Origin: Paenibacillus protaetiae
GTDB taxonomy: Bacteria; Bacillota; Bacilli; Paenibacillales; Paenibacillaceae
NCBI RefSeq assembly: GCF_004135365.1
Contig: NZ_CP035492.1
Location: forward strand, 2,106,501 to 2,170,500
DNA length: 64,000 nucleotides
Direction of reading: 5' to 3'
Below, one piece after another: positions 28,433 to 37,416 of the stretch (position 1 is the stretch's first letter; each line of letters starts with the position of its first letter). Position numbers and translations under genes: made by a program. Below the pieces are notes generated by a model. That model searched no databases. It was not told the DNA's origin and saw nothing but the letters and a program-made list of their open reading frames with translations.

Positions 28433-30760
28433 TTATTTATCGCCGCAGCGGCTGCCGGGCACATCGGTCGTCCAAGCCGAGGCGATCAGCACATCCATAT
28501 GCCTTGCCAGCCGCAGCAGGTCTTGCGCAACATTCCGCTTCCAGGGCGGAAATTTTCCGCGTCCAGCAGCCGATCTTCCTACAATTAATTGTGTCGCCTG
28601 AACCTGATCGGCCACCCGGACAAGCTGCCCGGCAAGCGGAACAGCCGGACTTGCGGCTACCGTCTTGTATATGCCGCCTAAACGATGAGTGAGGCTTGCC
28701 ATAGACTTGGCGCGAATTCTCGCTTCCTCGCTCCGCAGATTATGATCTTCAATATGCACCACATGCCATTCCGCTTTTAACCGATGGGCGATACGAAATC
28801 CGCGCCGGATAAGTTTATCTCCGCCGGGATGCAGGCTGACGCCAACTACAATAACCTCCCGCCTCCTCAGCGGGCCGCGCAGCGAGCTGCTCCGGTCCCA
28901 CGCTTCCAGCCGCTCGTCGACCTCATCCGCCAGTTCACGCAGCGCCAATTCACGAAGTCCAATTAGATTCGTTGTTGTAAAAAAAGCGGATAACGCCTGT
29001 TCGATTTTGTCCTTTGCATAAACTTTTCCTTCTTTCAGCCGCTGACGCAGCATTTGCGGCGAGACATCAATCAGCTCTACCTCGTCTGCAAGCTCCAATA
29101 GAAAGTCAGGCACCGTCTCCCGCACACGTACGCCTGTCAGCCGCTCGACCGAATCGTTTAAGCTTTCCAAATGCTGCACGTTCATTGTTGCGACAACGGA
29201 AATTCCGTTATCGAGCAGTCTGATCACATCTTCGTACCGTTTGCGGAAACGGCTTCCCGGCACATTCGTATGGGCAAGCTCATCCACCAGCACTAGCTCG
29301 GGGCTGCGCGCAAGGATAGCGTCCGTATCCATTTCGGACAGCTCGATCCCCCGGTAAATATGCACCTTGCGCGGAATTGTTTCCAGCGCGCCGATTTGCG
29401 CTTCCGTCTCTTGACGCCCATGCGTCTCCAGCAGGCCGATGACCACCTCTTCCCCTTTGCGCAGCATCCCATTGCCTTCCCGCAGCATCGTATACGTTTT
29501 GCCGACGCCCGGCGCTGCGCCAATATACACTTTCAGGCTGCCGCGGTTTACCCGGCTCAGCCGCTCGGCCATCACTTCCGGCGTCGTCCGGCGAAACACT
29601 TCCTGCACCGGCTTATGCTGCTTCGCCGGCAGTATACGTTCCCCTTCCTGCTCCGCACGGTCCGCCATCAAAAACAAATCCATATCGGGCGCGCGGCTAA
29701 GCAAGCTGCCAGCCAAATCTCCTTTCAGGAGCTGCTTTATACGCGGCTCCTTGGAGTGGCCCATGACGATGCGGCTTATATGATGCGCCGCCGCATACCG
29801 GAGAAGCGCCGCCGGTATCGAACGTTTGCTGCGAACCGGCATCTCTTCGAATGCAGCGCCAACCTTTTCAGTCAGCTTTATAATAGAACGCTTGAAAGCA
29901 AGCTGCTCCTTGCGAAGCGGCTTGCGGGGATAAACGAAGGCAAGCACGGCCAAATCCCCGTTTAAGCGGCGGGCAATCTGCTGCCCTCTTCGAATATATA
30001 TGGAGCCGTTCCAATCATATTGGGCGCATACGGCAATTCGTTCCGCTGTGCCTGCTGACGGGGCAAGTCCAAGCTGTTCCCGATGTTTGGCCAGCTCCTC
30101 CGCGACTCCTTCCGCTACAAGCCTTAAAGCGAGCTCGCGCAGCACGTTCAGTCCGCCTGCAGATATCGCCGGAGGCTGGCTGCCTGTACCGCCTTCTTCC
30201 AGCCGCTTCAAAATCGTCTCCGGCGAAACATCTATAAGACGAACTTCATCCGCCAGCTCCAGCGTGCCCAAAGGCACCGTGACTTCCGGCCGGACTCCCG
30301 TCCGGTGAAAAGCAGCCTCCGCAACGCCTTCCAGCTCGTAGGCGTTTAAGGTTGTCATAATGCTGATCCCCTGCTGCAGAAGCGCTTCTACCTCTTCGAA
30401 CCGGGTGCGCTGCACCGCCCCCGGCCGATTGCGATGGGCCAGGCCGTCCACCAGCACAACCTCGGCATTACGATGCAGCAGCGCATCGACATCCATATCG
30501 CATTCGAGTTCCTCATTCGGCCATCGGATGCCGGGCACGATCTCCAGTCCTTCCAGTTGCTGCTGCAATTGCGGCTTGCTCAGCGCAGCTATGGAGCCAA
30601 CTACAACGTCAACACCTTGCTCCATCAGCTGCTTGCCTTCCAGCAGCAGATGGAACGTTTTGCCGGAGCCGCTGGCGGCGCCAACGATAATTTTCAGCCT
30701 TCCCCGCTGGAGCCGGGCAATGGAATCGAGTATTTGCTCGGGCGTTTTTCTCCGGTTCAT
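28433..30760 (-). CDS. double KdpD N-terminal protein: two KdpD-Usp units, no kinase domain
   Basis: The ATG at 30760 follows AAGGAGGCG and gives 775 aa. Residues about 1-375 and about 388-775 are two copies of the KdpD N-terminal domain plus universal-stress domain. Copy 2 keeps canonical motifs: Walker A GAAPGVGKT at 414-422, VLVDELAHTNVPGSR, ATMNVQHLESLND. Copy 1 is altered: GAASGSGKT at 27-35, VLVDGLAHRNRPGAV, TTLNAYELEG. Each Usp part is recognisable (MGHSKEPRIKQLLKGDLAGSL; VGRSAAGRGKFPPW). There are no TM helices, DHp or HATPase domains and no KdpE nearby. Short KdpDs without a kinase are known in some bacteria, but a tandem copy is unusual. It follows kdpC by 22 bases. Confidence 0.9.
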   Translation of the reverse strand: MNRRKTPEQILDSIARLQRGRLKIIVGAASGSGKTFHLLLEGKQLMEQGVDVVVGSIAALSKPQLQQQLEGLEIVPGIRWPNEELECDMDVDALLHRNAEVVLVDGLAHRNRPGAVQRTRFEEVEALLQQGISIMTTLNAYELEGVAEAAFHRTGVRPEVTVPLGTLELADEVRLIDVSPETILKRLEEGGTGSQPPAISAGGLNVLRELALRLVAEGVAEELAKHREQLGLAPSAGTAERIAVCAQYDWNGSIYIRRGQQIARRLNGDLAVLAFVYPRKPLRKEQLAFKRSIIKLTEKVGAAFEEMPVRSKRSIPAALLRYAAAHHISRIVMGHSKEPRIKQLLKGDLAGSLLSRAPDMDLFLMADRAEQEGERILPAKQHKPVQEVFRRTTPEVMAERLSRVNRGSLKVYIGAAPGVGKTYTMLREGNGMLRKGEEVVIGLLETHGRQETEAQIGALETIPRKVHIYRGIELSEMDTDAILARSPELVLVDELAHTNVPGSRFRKRYEDVIRLLDNGISVVATMNVQHLESLNDSVERLTGVRVRETVPDFLLELADEVELIDVSPQMLRQRLKEGKVYAKDKIEQALSAFFTTTNLIGLRELALRELADEVDERLEAWDRSSSLRGPLRRREVIVVGVSLHPGGDKLIRRGFRIAHRLKAEWHVVHIEDHNLRSEEARIRAKSMASLTHRLGGIYKTVAASPAVPLAGQLVRVADQVQATQLIVGRSAAGRGKFPPWKRNVAQDLLRLARHMDVLIASAWTTDVPGSRCGDK

Positions 30761-30782
30761 AGATTTGGCGCCTCCTTGTCCG

Positions 30783-31385
30783 TTACCCTCCCATACGTTC
30801 TTTAAGCGCAATATTAAGCTCCAACACGTTAACTCTCGGTTCGCCAAACAATCCCAAATCCCGGCCTTCGGTATGCGCGTCAACCATTGCGCCCAGCTCT
30901 CCTTCCGCGATACCGGTCTGTTTGCTGATCCGCGGAATTTGCACCATGGCCGCTTCCGGTGAAATATGCGGATCAAGCCCGGAGCCGGAGTTTGTTATAA
31001 GCAGCAGCGGCACTTCGGATACCGGTACTTCGGGGTTATTCTCCTTCCAATCCTCGATGGATGCTTTCAAACGGTCTGCCAGCGCCGGGTTGGACGGCCC
31101 GTAGTTGTTGGATCCGGACGCTTCCGCTTGATAGCCGATGCTGCTTACCCGGCCGTGGAAATACTGCTGCCCGGCGAAATTTTGCCCGATCAGCTCCGAA
31201 CCGATCGTCTCGCCGGCGCTGTTCTTAATAAGGCTGCCGTTTGCCTGGTGAGGGAACAGCAGCTGCGCCGCTCCCGTGCTTACAAGCGGATAAATGATTC
31301 CGCATAAGACTATGAAAACAAAGCTGATGCGTATGGTCACTTGGACCCAGCCCCAAACCGAATACCTTTCACTAGCAGATTTCAT
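30783..31385 (-). CDS. kdpC: potassium-transporting ATPase subunit C
   Basis: A 200-aa protein with one N-terminal TM (about residues 15-40) and an extracytoplasmic domain. Family signatures are [84 protein letters not shown]. It stabilises the KdpFABC complex for ATP-driven high-affinity potassium uptake. The gap of 118 bases after kdpB is longer than usual and holds no clear gene. Confidence 0.97.
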
Positions 31386-31503: not shown

Positions 31504-33537
31504 TCATATCCATACATGAACAACCAAGTCGATCAGCTTAATTCCGATAAACGGAGCGGCCAGCCCGCCGAGGCCATAAATAAGCAGGTTGCGGCTGAGC
31601 AGCTTGTTGCCGCTCATCGGCTTGTAGGCAACACCTTTCATCGCCAGCGGAATCAGCAGCGGAATAATAATCGCATTAAACACAAGCGCCGATAAAACAG
31701 CCGACAGCGGCGAGCCGAGCTTCATGACGTTCAGCGTATCCATCTGCGGAATCGCGGCCATAAACATCGCCGGGATGATGGCAAAATATTTGGCCACATC
31801 GTTAGCAATGCTGAACGTCGTGAGCGCGCCGCGGGTCATTAGCAGCTGTTTGCCGATGGCGACAACTTCGATGATTTTGGACGGATCGGAGTCCAGATCA
31901 ATCATGTTGGCCGCTTCTTTGGCCGCCGCCGTGCCGCTGTTCATCGCAAGTCCCACGTCGGCTTGCGCCAGCGCCGGAGCGTCGTTTGTGCCGTCGCCGG
32001 TCATCGCGACCAGCTTGCCTGCCGCCTGTTCCCTGCGGATGACGGCGATTTTGTCCTCCGGCTTGCTTTCGGCGATATAATCGTCGACCCCCGCTTCTCT
32101 GGCAATGGTCGCCGCCGTAAGCGGATTGTCGCCCGTACACATGATTGTGCGGATACCCATCCGGCGAAGCTGATCGAACCGTTCCTTCATGCCCGGCTTA
32201 ACCGTATCCTTCAAATAAATGAGGCCATAAATTTTTTTGTCGACCGCCACGGCCAGCGGAGTTCCGCCTTCCGCCGCAATTGCGCTGGCATTCGCGTCCA
32301 AACCCTCAGGCACGTCCCCGCCTTGCGCCTGCACCCATTGGCGCACCGCATCGACGGCGCCTTTGCGCACCTTCCGCCCGTCCGTCAGATCAATGCCGCT
32401 CATTCGGGTTTCAGCTTGAAACGGAATAAACTCCCCGCCCTCTGCAATCGCCGCATCATAAGAAATGCCGTGTTTCTTCATGTAGTCCAGCACGGAACGC
32501 CCTTCCGGCGTATCGTCTTTCACCGAGCCGATTGCCGCCCAGACGGGCAGCAGCTCCCTGCTGCAAGAACCAACCGGAATAAAATCGCTTGCCATCCGGT
32601 TGCCAAACGTAATCGTGCCCGTTTTATCCAAAATCATCGTGTTAATGTCGCCGGCCGCTTCCACTGCTTTCCCCGACATCGCCAGTACGTTGAAACGGGT
32701 CACCCGATCCATGCCCGCAATGCCGATGGCGGACAGCAGCCCGCCGATGGTCGTCGGAATAAGGCAGACCAGAAGGGAGATCAATACGGGAATTTCCAGA
32801 TCAATGTCCAAATAACCGGCGATTGGTCCAAGCGTGACGACCACGATCAGGAAAATAAGCGTCAAGCTCGTCAGCAGCGTATTCAGCGCGATTTCGTTCG
32901 GGGTCTTCTGCCGTTTCGCCCCTTCCACCAGCGATATCATCCGGTCGATAAACGATTCGCCCGGATCCGCCGTTATCCGCACCTTGATCCGGTCGCTGAC
33001 AACTCGTGTTCCGCCGGTTACAGAGCTGAAATCGCCGCCCGCTTCTTTCATGACCGGAGCCGATTCCCCGGTAATCGCCGATTCGTCCACCGAAGCGACG
33101 CCTTCGACGACTTCGCCGTCGCCGGGGATCATCTCGCCTTGCTCTACGACAATCAAATCGCCTTTCCTCAGCTCGGTGGACAGGACTGTCTTGATGCCCG
33201 TCTCCGTCACTTTATTTGCCTTCATTTCGGTTTTCGTCCGTTTCAGCGTATCCGCCTGCGCTTTGCCCCTGCCTTCGGCCAGCGCTTCCGCGAAGTTCGC
33301 GAACAGCACGGTGAAGAGCAGGATGAAAAATACCGCTGCATTAAATCCCCTGCTTCCCGGCGCGTCAAACGCGGCCGGGAACAAAACCATCAGCAGCACC
33401 AGTACGGTGCCGATCTCTACGACAAACATGACGGGATTTTTCATCATCGCAACCGGGTTCAGCTTAATCAAGCTATCCTTTAAGGCTGCTCCGACCAGTT
33501 CGGGCGTAAGCAGCTTCTTTTTTCGTGAATCGTTCAT
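31504..33537 (-). CDS. kdpB: potassium-transporting ATPase ATP-binding subunit
   Basis: A 677-aa P-type ATPase. It shows the phosphorylation site [22 protein letters not shown] in the actuator domain, [18 protein letters not shown] in the hinge and about seven TM helices. KdpB couples ATP hydrolysis to potassium movement through KdpA. It begins 16 bases after kdpA. Confidence 0.98.
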
Positions 33538-33553
33538 CTTCTATCACCATCCG

Positions 33554-35233
33554 TTATCGCATTGTCAAATGTTCGGCAACAGGCCCAAGCGCAATCGCCG
33601 GCAAAAAGGTCAAAGCCCCAATCAGGATAACCGTGCCGGCCAGCAGTCCGGTAAACAGCGCGTTATTGGTCCGGAATGTCCCAAGCGTTTCCGGTACCGG
33701 CTGCTTGCGCACAAGCGAACCTGCGACGGCGAGCATCGCAATCATGGAAATGTATCTGCCGAACAGCATGACAAGGCCGGTGCTGACGTTCCAGAAGGCC
33801 GTATTGTCAGCCAACCCTTCGAAACCCGAGCCGTTGTTGGCGGCCGACGACGTATATTCGTACAGCACCTGGCTAATGCCGTGGAAGCCCGGGTTCGTAA
33901 TCGCCGAACTGCCGGCGTCTATCGCCATGGCTAGCGCCGTCGGCACCAGAATAATAAACGGATGCGCTAGTATCGCGACGGCGATCAGCTTCATTTCCTT
34001 TGGCTCGATTTTGCGCCCGAGAAATTCCGGCGTGCGCCCGACCATGAGGCCGCAAATAAATACGGCCAGTATGGCGTACATCAGCATGTTGACCAGGCCA
34101 ACCCCTTTGCCGCCAAACACGACGTTCAGCATCATTTCGGCCATCGGCACCATGCCGCCAAGCGGCGTCAGCGTATCGTGCATATTATCGACCGATCCGG
34201 TCGTCGCCGCCGTCGTCACAGCCGTAAACAAAGCGGACTGCGCAATGCCGAACCGCGTCTCCTTGCCTTCCATGCTACCTTGGGAGGCATCTGCGCCAAG
34301 CGAATGAATAAGCGGTGTTCCGGCTTTTTCCGAAGCATAGGCAGTTGCCAAGAACACTAAGAACAAGCACATCATCGCCGAGAAAATGACCCAGCCCTGC
34401 TTTTTGTTTTTGGCGAACAAGCCAAACGTATAAGGAAGAGCAGCCGGCAGCGCCCACATCGACACAATCTCGATGACATTCGTCAGCGGATTCGGGTTCT
34501 CGAACGGATGGGCGGAGTTCGCTCCCATAAAACCGCCGCCGTTTGTGCCTAGATGCTTGATCGATTCCAGCGAAGCGACCGGACCGATCGCGATATGCTG
34601 CACGGCGCCTTCCAGCGTCGTCACCGATAACGTCGGGTCAAGCGTCTGCGGCACTTGCAGCGCCACAAGCACAAGCGTAATGACGAACGCAAACGGCAGG
34701 AAAATGCGGGTGTGCGCTTTGACAAAATCCTCGAAAAAGTTGCCGATCGTTTGTCCTTTGCTCGTAAGGCCGCGCACGAAAGCGATCGCTACCGAAAAGC
34801 CGGTTGCGGCGGACGTAAACATCATCATCATGATGACCGCCATCTGCGAGAAATAGGTAAGCCCCGTTTCGCCGCTGTAATGCTGCAGGTTCGTATTCGT
34901 AATAAAGCTGATGACCGTATTAAACGCCAGCGACTGCTCCATATTGCCGATTCCGTTCGGATTAAACGGAAGCCCGGTCTGCACCCGCAGGATGATATAG
35001 CTGACCGCGACAAGCACCACGTTCGTGAGCAGGAAACTAAGCGTGTAGGTTTTCCAGGTCATGCCGTTCCTTTTTTTCAGCCCGATCCATTTATAGAGCA
35101 GCCTCTCTACAGGTCCGAATATCCGGTCCGTCCAGTTCGGCTCGTTCGAGAACACATGGTACACATAGGTGCCAAGCGGTTTAACGAGCAGGATCACAAC
35201 CGCCACAACAACCGCCATCTGCAAAATTTCCAT
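33554..35233 (-). CDS. kdpA: potassium-transporting ATPase potassium-binding subunit
   Basis: A 559-aa membrane protein with ten TM helices and the repeated selectivity-filter loops expected of KdpA, including TNGGGFMGANSAHPFENP and SAANNGSGFEGL. N-terminal VVVAVVILLVKPLGTYVYHVF is typical. It is the channel-like subunit of KdpFABC and lies between kdpF and kdpB in the operon. Confidence 0.98.
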   Translation of the reverse strand: MEILQMAVVVAVVILLVKPLGTYVYHVFSNEPNWTDRIFGPVERLLYKWIGLKKRNGMTWKTYTLSFLLTNVVLVAVSYIILRVQTGLPFNPNGIGNMEQSLAFNTVISFITNTNLQHYSGETGLTYFSQMAVIMMMMFTSAATGFSVAIAFVRGLTSKGQTIGNFFEDFVKAHTRIFLPFAFVITLVLVALQVPQTLDPTLSVTTLEGAVQHIAIGPVASLESIKHLGTNGGGFMGANSAHPFENPNPLTNVIEIVSMWALPAALPYTFGLFAKNKKQGWVIFSAMMCLFLVFLATAYASEKAGTPLIHSLGADASQGSMEGKETRFGIAQSALFTAVTTAATTGSVDNMHDTLTPLGGMVPMAEMMLNVVFGGKGVGLVNMLMYAILAVFICGLMVGRTPEFLGRKIEPKEMKLIAVAILAHPFIILVPTALAMAIDAGSSAITNPGFHGISQVLYEYTSSAANNGSGFEGLADNTAFWNVSTGLVMLFGRYISMIAMLAVAGSLVRKQPVPETLGTFRTNNALFTGLLAGTVILIGALTFLPAIALGPVAEHLTMR

Positions 35234-35571: not shown

Positions 35572-35930
35572 AAAAAAGAAGCCTTAGGAGCAGAGAAGCA
35601 GCTCCCTCGGCTTCGGCTTTACGGCAGCGCAAGCGAAGCTTCGCCTATGCGGCAAAAGCTTGGCTGCGCCGCTATATCAAGCAGCAGCACGATATCGAGT
35701 GTCTCTCCCGGACACGCTTACGAGGTTAGCTGTCGGATTCGGGCGCGGAAGTCGCCCTACGCGCTGCTTCATTGAAGCCGCGCGACTCACCCCATGGGCG
35801 GATTGGCTGCGCCGGCTCTTGAATAGCCAGCCGGCAGCCTGTTCCCGCCCGTTTGGTTCCCCCGCTTTTGCCATTCCGGCAAAATTCAGCGACTGGGTAC
35901 TGCGAATAGCACCCATATGGTTTTAAACCG
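35572..35930 (-). promoter_or_regulatory. c-di-AMP (ydaO-yuaA) riboswitch, kdp-proximal copy, with terminator
   Basis: On the minus strand the conserved ydaO blocks appear in order: CGCTGAATTTTGCCGGAA, GGGGGAACCA, GGGGTGAGTCG, GTAGGGCGACTTCC, CCCGAATCCGACAGCTAACC, TCGTAAGCG (ending at 35715). About 100 nt further a strong terminator (GAAGCC and GGAGC arms at 35578-35614, six T) precedes the small membrane gene and kdpF. Ligand binding is expected to favour termination and switch kdp off, as known for c-di-AMP control of potassium uptake. Confidence 0.95.
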
Positions 35931-35962
35931 TCATGCACAATAGCATAGCGCCATGCCGGCGC

Positions 35963-36262
35963 AAAAAAGCCGCAGAGGCACAGTGACCTCTGCGGCCAAA
36001 ATAAGCCACAGCTCATCATCCCTCTCTCGAACAACGCTTACGAGGTTAGCTGTCGGATTCGGGCGGTGAGAGTCGCCCTACTTCAAGCATGCTCCATGGT
36101 GCCTGCTTGAAGATTCACCCCTTGCCGCGCGCCAAACCGACTCTCACATCGGATTGCCTGCACAGCGGACCGCAGCAGGGCAAATTGCGGCTTGCCCCGT
36201 CATGCGGATGGTTCCCCCGTTTTCCGTTTGCGACGGAAACTCAGCGATTGGAAATCATTTGA
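35963..36262 (-). promoter_or_regulatory. c-di-AMP (ydaO-yuaA) riboswitch, kdp-distal copy, with terminator
   Basis: A second complete ydaO aptamer on the same strand: TCGCTGAGTTTCCGTC, ACGGGGGAACCA, AAGGGGTGAATC, GTAGGGCGACTCTCACC, CCCGAATCCGACAGCTAACC, TCGTAAGCG (ending at 36035). Its own terminator follows (GCCGCAGAGG with its complement at 35969-35996, then six T). It lies about 30 nt upstream of the kdp-proximal copy with no evident promoter between them, so a kdp transcript must escape two c-di-AMP-controlled terminators. Confidence 0.95.
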
Positions 36263-36277
36263 ACTTGCATGAACTGA

Positions 36278-36306
36278 ATCTTACTCCCGGCACAAGCTGC
36301 TGTAAA
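36278..36306 (-). promoter_or_regulatory. candidate promoter of the kdp transcript
   Basis: On the minus strand TTTACA (36301-36306), 17 nt, TAAGAT (36278-36283), with a start about 8 nt before the first riboswitch. The stretch 36307-36587 between the two divergent promoters is AT-rich and holds no supported gene. Confidence 0.6.
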
Positions 36307-36587
36307 GAGAATAGAGAGGCGATTTAGGCAGAAATTGGTGAGGTTTGAGTATATGTAAACCGCTTTCTTTTTTAAAAATCTTTAAAATGCTCAAAATATC
36401 TCGCGGATACTTCATTTCCCGAAAATTGCACATAGATTCTTTTCGTTGCCGCAGCCCATTTTCCCCTATAACAGTCATAGCTGCGGGCAAAAACGAGTAT
36501 TTATAAAAGATAAAGGAAAATGCTGCGGCCATTCAGGGAAAAAGGACAAAATCGTGTAAAGGATATGCCGCATCGGCCAGCGAAATA

Positions 36588-36616
36588 TTTACAAAGCGGG
36601 TTTTCAGGTTTACTAT
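36588..36616 (+). promoter_or_regulatory. candidate promoter of the divergent riboswitch gene
   Basis: TTTACA (36588-36593), 17 nt, TACTAT (36611-36616). The -35 box is the same as in the divergent kdp promoter. Confidence 0.65.
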
Positions 36617-36647
36617 AAACCTCATACCCAGTTACGGTACATTTTTG

Positions 36648-36787
36648 CGCTGAATTTTTTGGAGACAAAAAAGCGGGGGACCCAATCGGCATGCGGAAAT
36701 GAAGTATGCCATCCGGGGTGAATCGTTGGCCGCGCGCCATCGTAGGGCTTCTCTCTAGCCCGAATCCGACAGCTAACCTCGTAAGCG
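36648..36787 (+). promoter_or_regulatory. c-di-AMP (ydaO-yuaA) riboswitch, divergent third copy
   Basis: On the plus strand: CGCTGAATTTTTTGGAGA, GCGGGGGACCCA, CCGGGGTGAATCG, CGTAGGGCTTCTCTC, CCCGAATCCGACAGCTAACC, TCGTAAGCG. No terminator hairpin follows. The AAGGAGAG ribosome site of the next gene begins 4 nt after the aptamer, which suggests control of translation start. Confidence 0.93.
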
Positions 36788-36807
36788 AACGAAGGAGAGA
36801 ATGCTCT

Positions 36808-37416
36808 ATGTTTCAATCTGCGGAAATGTTAACAGACCGCCTCGCCAATCATTTGGCGATCGAAGTCCCTCACGCGTCCGAAATCCAAATCAAGCGGATC
36901 GAACTGTTCGTCATCCCGGCCATCAGTATTGATGCGCCCGGATACCGCGTCTGTATGCGGATCACTGCCGCTTTGGGTTACGGATGGAGCGAAACGTTTA
37001 TCGAAAAGAAAGAAAAGCCATCCGATTGGGTGCATTGGAGCAGCTGCCTCGTCCACTATATTAACACGGGGAACGATTATAACCGTGAAGACAACACGCT
37101 CGACAGCCGCCTCCGGCATATGTTTGTTACTGCAGTAGATCAGATCAGCAGCCACCGGCTGCAGACAGCTGCTGCAGATAGCGCCGAAAGCGTAGAGAGG
37201 GCGGTCGGCGCCGGGAGCACAGCCAGCTTGGCGGAAGAGCAGCTAGAGCAGGGGCAAAATACCGGACAGGCGGCAGAGATAAGCTCCGCAGCCGCTGCGG
37301 AACGTGAAGCGGATGCGGAGAACCAGGCGGCTGCAGCCGTTGAAAGCGGAAGCGAGCCTTTTACGGAAGATGTGACGCTTTTAGCGCGCTCGGAATGCTA
37401 TATTTCGCTGTTTTAG
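36808..37416 (+). CDS. uncharacterised protein under c-di-AMP riboswitch control (202 aa)
   Basis: The ATG at 36808 lies 9 bases after GGAGAG. Residues 1 to about 120 look folded (EIQIKRIELFVIPAISID, VCMRITAALGYGWSETFIE, HWSSCLVHYINTGNDYN). About 120-190 is Ala/Glu/Ser-rich low complexity, and the end is LLARSECYISLF. No TM helix or signal peptide. A longer reading that starts inside the riboswitch is not credible. I recognise no family. The riboswitch suggests a part in potassium, osmotic or cell-wall control, but nothing in the protein proves it. Confidence 0.8.
   Translation: MFQSAEMLTDRLANHLAIEVPHASEIQIKRIELFVIPAISIDAPGYRVCMRITAALGYGWSETFIEKKEKPSDWVHWSSCLVHYINTGNDYNREDNTLDSRLRHMFVTAVDQISSHRLQTAAADSAESVERAVGAGSTASLAEEQLEQGQNTGQAAEISSAAAAEREADAENQAAAAVESGSEPFTEDVTLLARSECYISLF

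Follow-up and report, generated by a model that had tools for sequence, protein, structure and literature searches.

Three c-di-AMP riboswitch elements in a kdp intergenic region of Paenibacillus protaetiae: a tandem pair before kdpFABC and a divergent copy before the gene of a predicted capping-domain protein

The window analysed here is a 64,000-nucleotide stretch of the Paenibacillus protaetiae chromosome. It carries a kdp operon on the minus strand and a divergent gene on the plus strand, separated by an intergenic region that contains three riboswitch elements (Table 1). Downstream of the two serial aptamers, the genes follow in the order kdpF, kdpA, kdpB, kdpC and a KdpD-like gene. A small membrane-protein ORF precedes kdpF, and a similar ORF of 36 aa occupies the same place in L067, a Paenibacillus relative. 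In that relative, kdpF is separated from the second kdp riboswitch by a TrkA_N ORF of 132 aa (PF02254; L067:9652-10050, minus strand) that is absent from the window. The KdpD N-terminal domain occurs twice in the single chain of the KdpD-like protein, whose relatives share this duplicated length (55-58% identity); Pfam gave no histidine kinase match in it. Since the Usp domain of Staphylococcus aureus KdpD binds c-di-AMP (cited in PMC6488665), the KdpD-like protein may, by analogy, provide a further c-di-AMP input to kdp.

Table 1. Features of the kdp intergenic region and of the flanking genes, in window coordinates
Feature	Position	Strand	Basis or comment
KdpD-like protein	28433..30976	-	PF02702 in two stretches + PF00582 (Usp)
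kdpC	30783..31385	-	PF02669, E 2.2e-71
kdpB	31504..33537	-	PF00122 + PF00702; between kdpA and kdpC
kdpA	33554..35233	-	PF03814, E 3.8e-241
kdpF, 25 aa	35266..35343	-	position and size
Small membrane-protein ORF, ~37 aa	35340..35453	-	ahead of kdpF; similar ORF in L067
Intrinsic terminator 2, hairpin + T6	35572..35614	-	after TX2; by folding
TX2, second aptamer of kdp leader	35700..35901	-	RF00379, 83.0 bits, E 8.1e-18
Intrinsic terminator 1, 12-pair hairpin (35997-35968) + T6	35962..35997	-	after TX1
TX1, first, promoter-proximal aptamer of kdp leader	36019..36256	-	RF00379, 86.0 bits, E 1.2e-18
Predicted kdp leader promoter, TTTACA-17-TAAGAT	36278..36306	-	consensus scan; upstream of TX1
Predicted divergent-unit promoter, TTTACA-17-TACTAT	36588..36616	+	consensus scan; upstream of TL
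TL, divergent aptamer, translational type	36638..36802	+	RF00379, 87.5 bits, E 4.5e-19
Aptamer loop TTCTCTCT, putative 5' pseudoknot partner	36749..36756	+	complementary to 36792-36801
AAGGAGAGAA, putative 3' pseudoknot strand and Shine-Dalgarno of divergent gene	36792..36801	+	complementarity, conservation
Divergent gene, 202 aa	36808..37416	+	stand-alone MR/MLE capping-domain protein by predicted structure

The whole window was scanned with cmscan against Rfam at the gathering threshold. This gave three matches to RF00379, each full length (model 1-134), and no other Rfam family in the 64 kb. An initial annotation, made from the sequence, had placed three such elements at kdp, two serial and one divergent. 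With 83.0-87.5 bits against a gathering score of 38, this observation is confirmed; its interpretation is partly supported, as detailed below. The other three RF00379 riboswitches of the genome stand before a KtrA-like gene, an NlpC/P60 gene and a G5/3D-domain gene, which are typical c-di-AMP regulon members.

On the kdp side, consensus scanning yielded the promoter listed in Table 1 and a second promoter-like site, also upstream of TX1 (36376-36348, minus strand). In relatives carrying the tandem pair, TTTACA-17/18-TANNAT precedes TX1 at 13 of 14 loci, and the promoter score upstream of TX1 averages 8.9 of 12 (6.8 in shuffled sequences); upstream of TX2 it is 4.3 (6.2 shuffled). A promoter between TX1 and TX2, which would uncouple the two elements, was looked for and was found by consensus scan neither in the window nor in relatives. 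A 7/12 match between them in the window was rejected, being unconserved and at a site that scores below shuffles across relatives. Each serial aptamer has its own terminator, as had been proposed. A hairpin and T-run resembling terminator 1 occur in most relatives with the tandem pair, a hairpin similar to terminator 2 is also found in relatives, and both terminators recur in a related genus. As judged from sequence, the leader has the composition of a tandem riboswitch: two aptamers with their own expression platforms on one transcript, with neither promoter nor ORF between them. The sole conserved kdp-side promoter lies upstream of TX1 and the pair appears coupled; with a terminator for each aptamer and no internal promoter, two gates in series is the natural reading. 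A steeper response from two such gates would be expected from theory. We also considered an antiterminator shared by TX1 and TX2, and dropped it because folds made without the terminator 3' arm gave no consistent partner.

Serial c-di-AMP riboswitches have precedents. Excerpts of PMC9481103 (Breaker laboratory, 2022) count 77 doublets of c-di-AMP riboswitches, termed pseudo-cooperative, and in most of them a terminator separates the two members. The kdp leader resembles these in its two complete, serial ydaO riboswitches and in the terminator that separates them; the third divergent copy, its gene and the setting at a kdp locus of Paenibacillaceae do not come up in those excerpts. The same layout, two switches on kdp and at least one divergent, was detected by motif at 18 surveyed loci in several genera and a second family (f6) of the order, and Rfam confirms eight of these, window included. 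The view that the arrangement is unusual therefore did not hold: given the published doublets and these loci, the kdp side is of a known kind and the arrangement is common in the group.

In a tree of TX1, TX2 and TL aptamers from two genera, with few well-supported branches, sequences group by position and not by genome (4 label changes against a shuffled mean of 17.8). This clustering by type suggests that the three-switch arrangement is probably old, and the locus appears to be a conserved variant across many Paenibacillus-like bacteria. It also bears on the idea that one tandem copy is a decaying duplicate and that only the other senses c-di-AMP. One functional switch can evidently suffice, since L071, L100 and L101 have a single kdp-side aptamer and the pair of L052, 24 nt apart, has no terminator between its members. 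Both window copies, however, score far above the gathering cut-off and keep their terminators, and each of the two types, TX1 as well as TX2, is conserved across both genera. We consider decay of one copy very unlikely and retain two gates in series.

Spacing within the tandem pair varies between relatives. The closely set TX1 and TX2 of L052 (G350) might bind four ligands in a truly cooperative manner, the tandem aptamers of L074 (G332) lie 45 nt apart, and the inter-aptamer gap of 277 nt in L042 holds no recognisable terminator.

Termination of kdpFABC transcription by c-di-AMP through a single riboswitch has been proven in Bacillus thuringiensis BMB171, and c-di-AMP drops under potassium limitation in B. 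thuringiensis (PMC6488665). The kdp side studied here is comparable in its putative c-di-AMP OFF switch with a terminator, in the truncated KdpD nearby and in having no KdpE. It differs in that the earlier system has one aptamer, with 12 species carrying riboswitch-regulated kdp, whereas here two aptamers and a divergent translational-type one occur in many Paenibacillaceae. The same study described kdp riboswitches as largely confined to the B. cereus group and as mutually exclusive with KdpDE. This statement is qualified by four or five loci of our survey (L103, L105, L109, L110, L113), where a riboswitch on kdp coexists with an adjacent kinase/response-regulator pair; L103, L110 and L113 show a readable H-box as well as a readable G1-box, and the L105 kinase looks frameshifted.

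The less expected part of the locus is the divergent side, whose gene the initial annotation did not identify. A TTTACA promoter lies upstream of 24 of 29 homologous TL aptamers, and the promoter score upstream of TL in relatives averages 9.4, against 7.0 in shuffles. TL ends at AAGGAGAGAAT, 5 nt before the ATG at 36808, and has AAGGAGAG within its last bases. In published ydaO structures, a loop of the aptamer and its tail pair in a pseudoknot, and the loop and tail of TL were so assigned. The two are complementary, and the tail strand contains a correctly spaced Shine-Dalgarno. In all 29 aligned leaders AGGAGAG is invariant, as is the CTC core of the loop, and the start codon lies 5-11 nt downstream. 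Because the Shine-Dalgarno coincides with the 3' pseudoknot strand, the ligand-bound fold should hide it. Covariation barely tests the loop-tail pairing, because the pairing is nearly invariant: a variable subset scored 6.0 and its shuffles 5.66, which is not significant (154 of the 2000 shuffles reached the observed value), the full set gave no excess over shuffles, and compensated variants exist. The proposal of a divergent copy with a translational-type layout abutting a ribosome site is borne out, and the layout is conserved in many species. A similar junction of aptamer and start codon occurs at other RF00379 loci of the family, before unrelated genes (annotated by eye as alpha/beta-hydrolase-like and secreted protein), so the translational platform is not unique to the divergent gene.

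Alternatively, TL might affect transcription or the stability of the mRNA, and its overlap with the Shine-Dalgarno would then be a by-product of the conserved ydaO purine tail. GAGAG is widespread among ydaO aptamers, also among those with a terminator downstream, and in several remote homologues the aptamer lies 100-300 nt upstream of the gene, in L227 with a terminator-like hairpin between. The window and all 29 leaders argue otherwise: the start codon follows the AGGAGAG tail so closely that no room is left for a terminator before the gene. This alternative appears unlikely, and from the complementarity and its conservation we infer that the pseudoknot gates translation from TL.

The product of the divergent gene matched no Pfam or NCBIfam family above cut-off, including PF02746 (MR_MLE_N), and no PDB entry by sequence. 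A similarity to 5-FTHF cyclo-ligase (E 0.006-0.09) covered only about 25-40 residues and was discounted. Structures were approached through AlphaFold2 models built from 31 sequences, with a core pLDDT above 90 for the window protein and a mean of 80.7 for its P. harenae homologue. VIA-align matched these to the capping domain of mandelate-racemase/muconate-lactonizing (MR/MLE) enzymes with Z 9.9 for the window protein and Z 11.9 for the homologue, the latter with 111 of 141 residues aligned at an rmsd of 2.7 A. All structural matches listed, 50 per search, seem to belong to the MR/MLE superfamily. Most of the listed alignments run from the enzyme N-terminus to its C-terminal strand and cover about 110 residues of chains of 350-390, so the TIM barrel is skipped. 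Foldseek gave a best E of 0.018. Profile comparison with MR/MLE by hhalign reproduced the structural register (P ~0.008, probability 5%), and the reversed control gave nothing; by itself this sequence match is weak and not significant.

Homologues of the divergent protein are mostly 136-202 aa long and their models have no TIM barrel. The predicted models thus show the capping-domain fold of the enolase superfamily and none of the barrel with its metal ligands. As the catalytic machinery of that superfamily resides in what is missing, we do not file the protein there as an enzyme. Compared with MR/MLE enzymes, it shares the predicted N-terminal capping-domain fold and C-terminal strand and differs in having neither barrel nor catalytic residues. 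The prediction is thus of a barrel-less capping domain of the enolase superfamily, for which a non-enzymatic binding or regulatory role in potassium/osmotic homeostasis seems the most plausible. We found no description, in the literature searched, of such a predicted barrel-less enolase-cap protein under putative translational c-di-AMP control.

A search with the divergent protein alone found homologues in 55 of 396 family genomes. A profile search extended this to 92 of 386 family genomes in 11 of 19 genera, many of the matches being remote; the genus richest in homologues is made up of Paenibacillus species, among them P. harenae, P. castaneae and P. alkaliterrae. Rfam, applied to 29 of the loci from the protein search, placed an RF00379 aptamer against the start codon in 33 of 40 copies of the gene, window included. 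In a wider set, found by protein alone, the aptamer motif stands directly upstream of the gene at 44 of 49 loci, and for 16 of 20 remote homologues it is no more than about 1.2 kb away. Permissive cmscan found no aptamer upstream of the gene in L067, L105, L109 and L113; L105 and L113 have an aptamer-like 3' remnant, and all four keep a GGAGAGA Shine-Dalgarno. The neighbours of stand-alone copies were examined as a clue to function and set aside: the gene looks monocistronic, and the recurring neighbours seem to reflect general synteny.

The position of the gene beside kdp raises the question of whether its product is an accessory protein of the Kdp pump itself. The two are divergent neighbours in many genomes, and at five loci of genus g2 a gene pair for a histidine kinase and an OmpR-type regulator stands beside kdp, and immediately downstream of the pair lies the divergent gene, its aptamer lost or reduced to a remnant and its Shine-Dalgarno kept where examined. 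However, comparison of the two lists showed that about 16 of the 92 gene-bearing genomes have no clear kdpA, which is present in about 300 of the 386 family genomes; their kdpA matches are weak (E ~1e-6 at best) and probably represent other potassium transporters. Many copies of the gene, moreover, stand alone with an aptamer of their own, and kdp is absent from about 8 kb around them. Carriers without kdpA and copies far from kdp indicate that the gene tracks c-di-AMP control and potassium regulation more than the pump. A pump accessory is rather unlikely, and we favour a broader role, which would add to the c-di-AMP/potassium regulon a widely conserved protein that has no name so far.

We consider it likely that the intergenic region works as a single divergent control region for c-di-AMP that has two outputs. 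To the left, one promoter would give a leader in which two complete c-di-AMP OFF riboswitches follow each other; each ligand-bound aptamer would let its own terminator form, so that polymerase would have to pass two c-di-AMP-sensitive terminators before kdpFABC. To the right, a second promoter would give an mRNA with a single aptamer as its leader, and the end of that aptamer would be the ribosome-binding site; here the AAGGAGAG Shine-Dalgarno would form the 3' strand of the loop-tail pseudoknot, be hidden in the ligand-bound fold, and translation would stop. Both sides would be on when c-di-AMP falls, as under potassium limitation, and the right-hand product would be a small barrel-less enolase-cap protein with a binding or regulatory part in potassium/osmotic homeostasis. 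More tentatively, the undescribed Paenibacillales family of barrel-free capping-domain proteins could be a dedicated c-di-AMP effector that adjusts this homeostasis at low c-di-AMP, with almost all close homologues under a c-di-AMP riboswitch of their own that hides the Shine-Dalgarno in the aptamer pseudoknot.

One ligand acting through transcriptional and translational platforms is also a feature of bi-mechanism systems such as the SAM-II arrays described in PMC9481103; there both platforms reside in one mRNA, whereas here they would be on two divergent transcripts. The locus would thus be a compact natural system in which one aptamer class is used serially on transcription and alone on translation within a single intergenic region. 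Three loci (L068, L069, L074) hold four c-di-AMP riboswitches in about 1.7 kb: kdp has two of them, and the divergent gene, present there as two adjacent copies, has one per copy.
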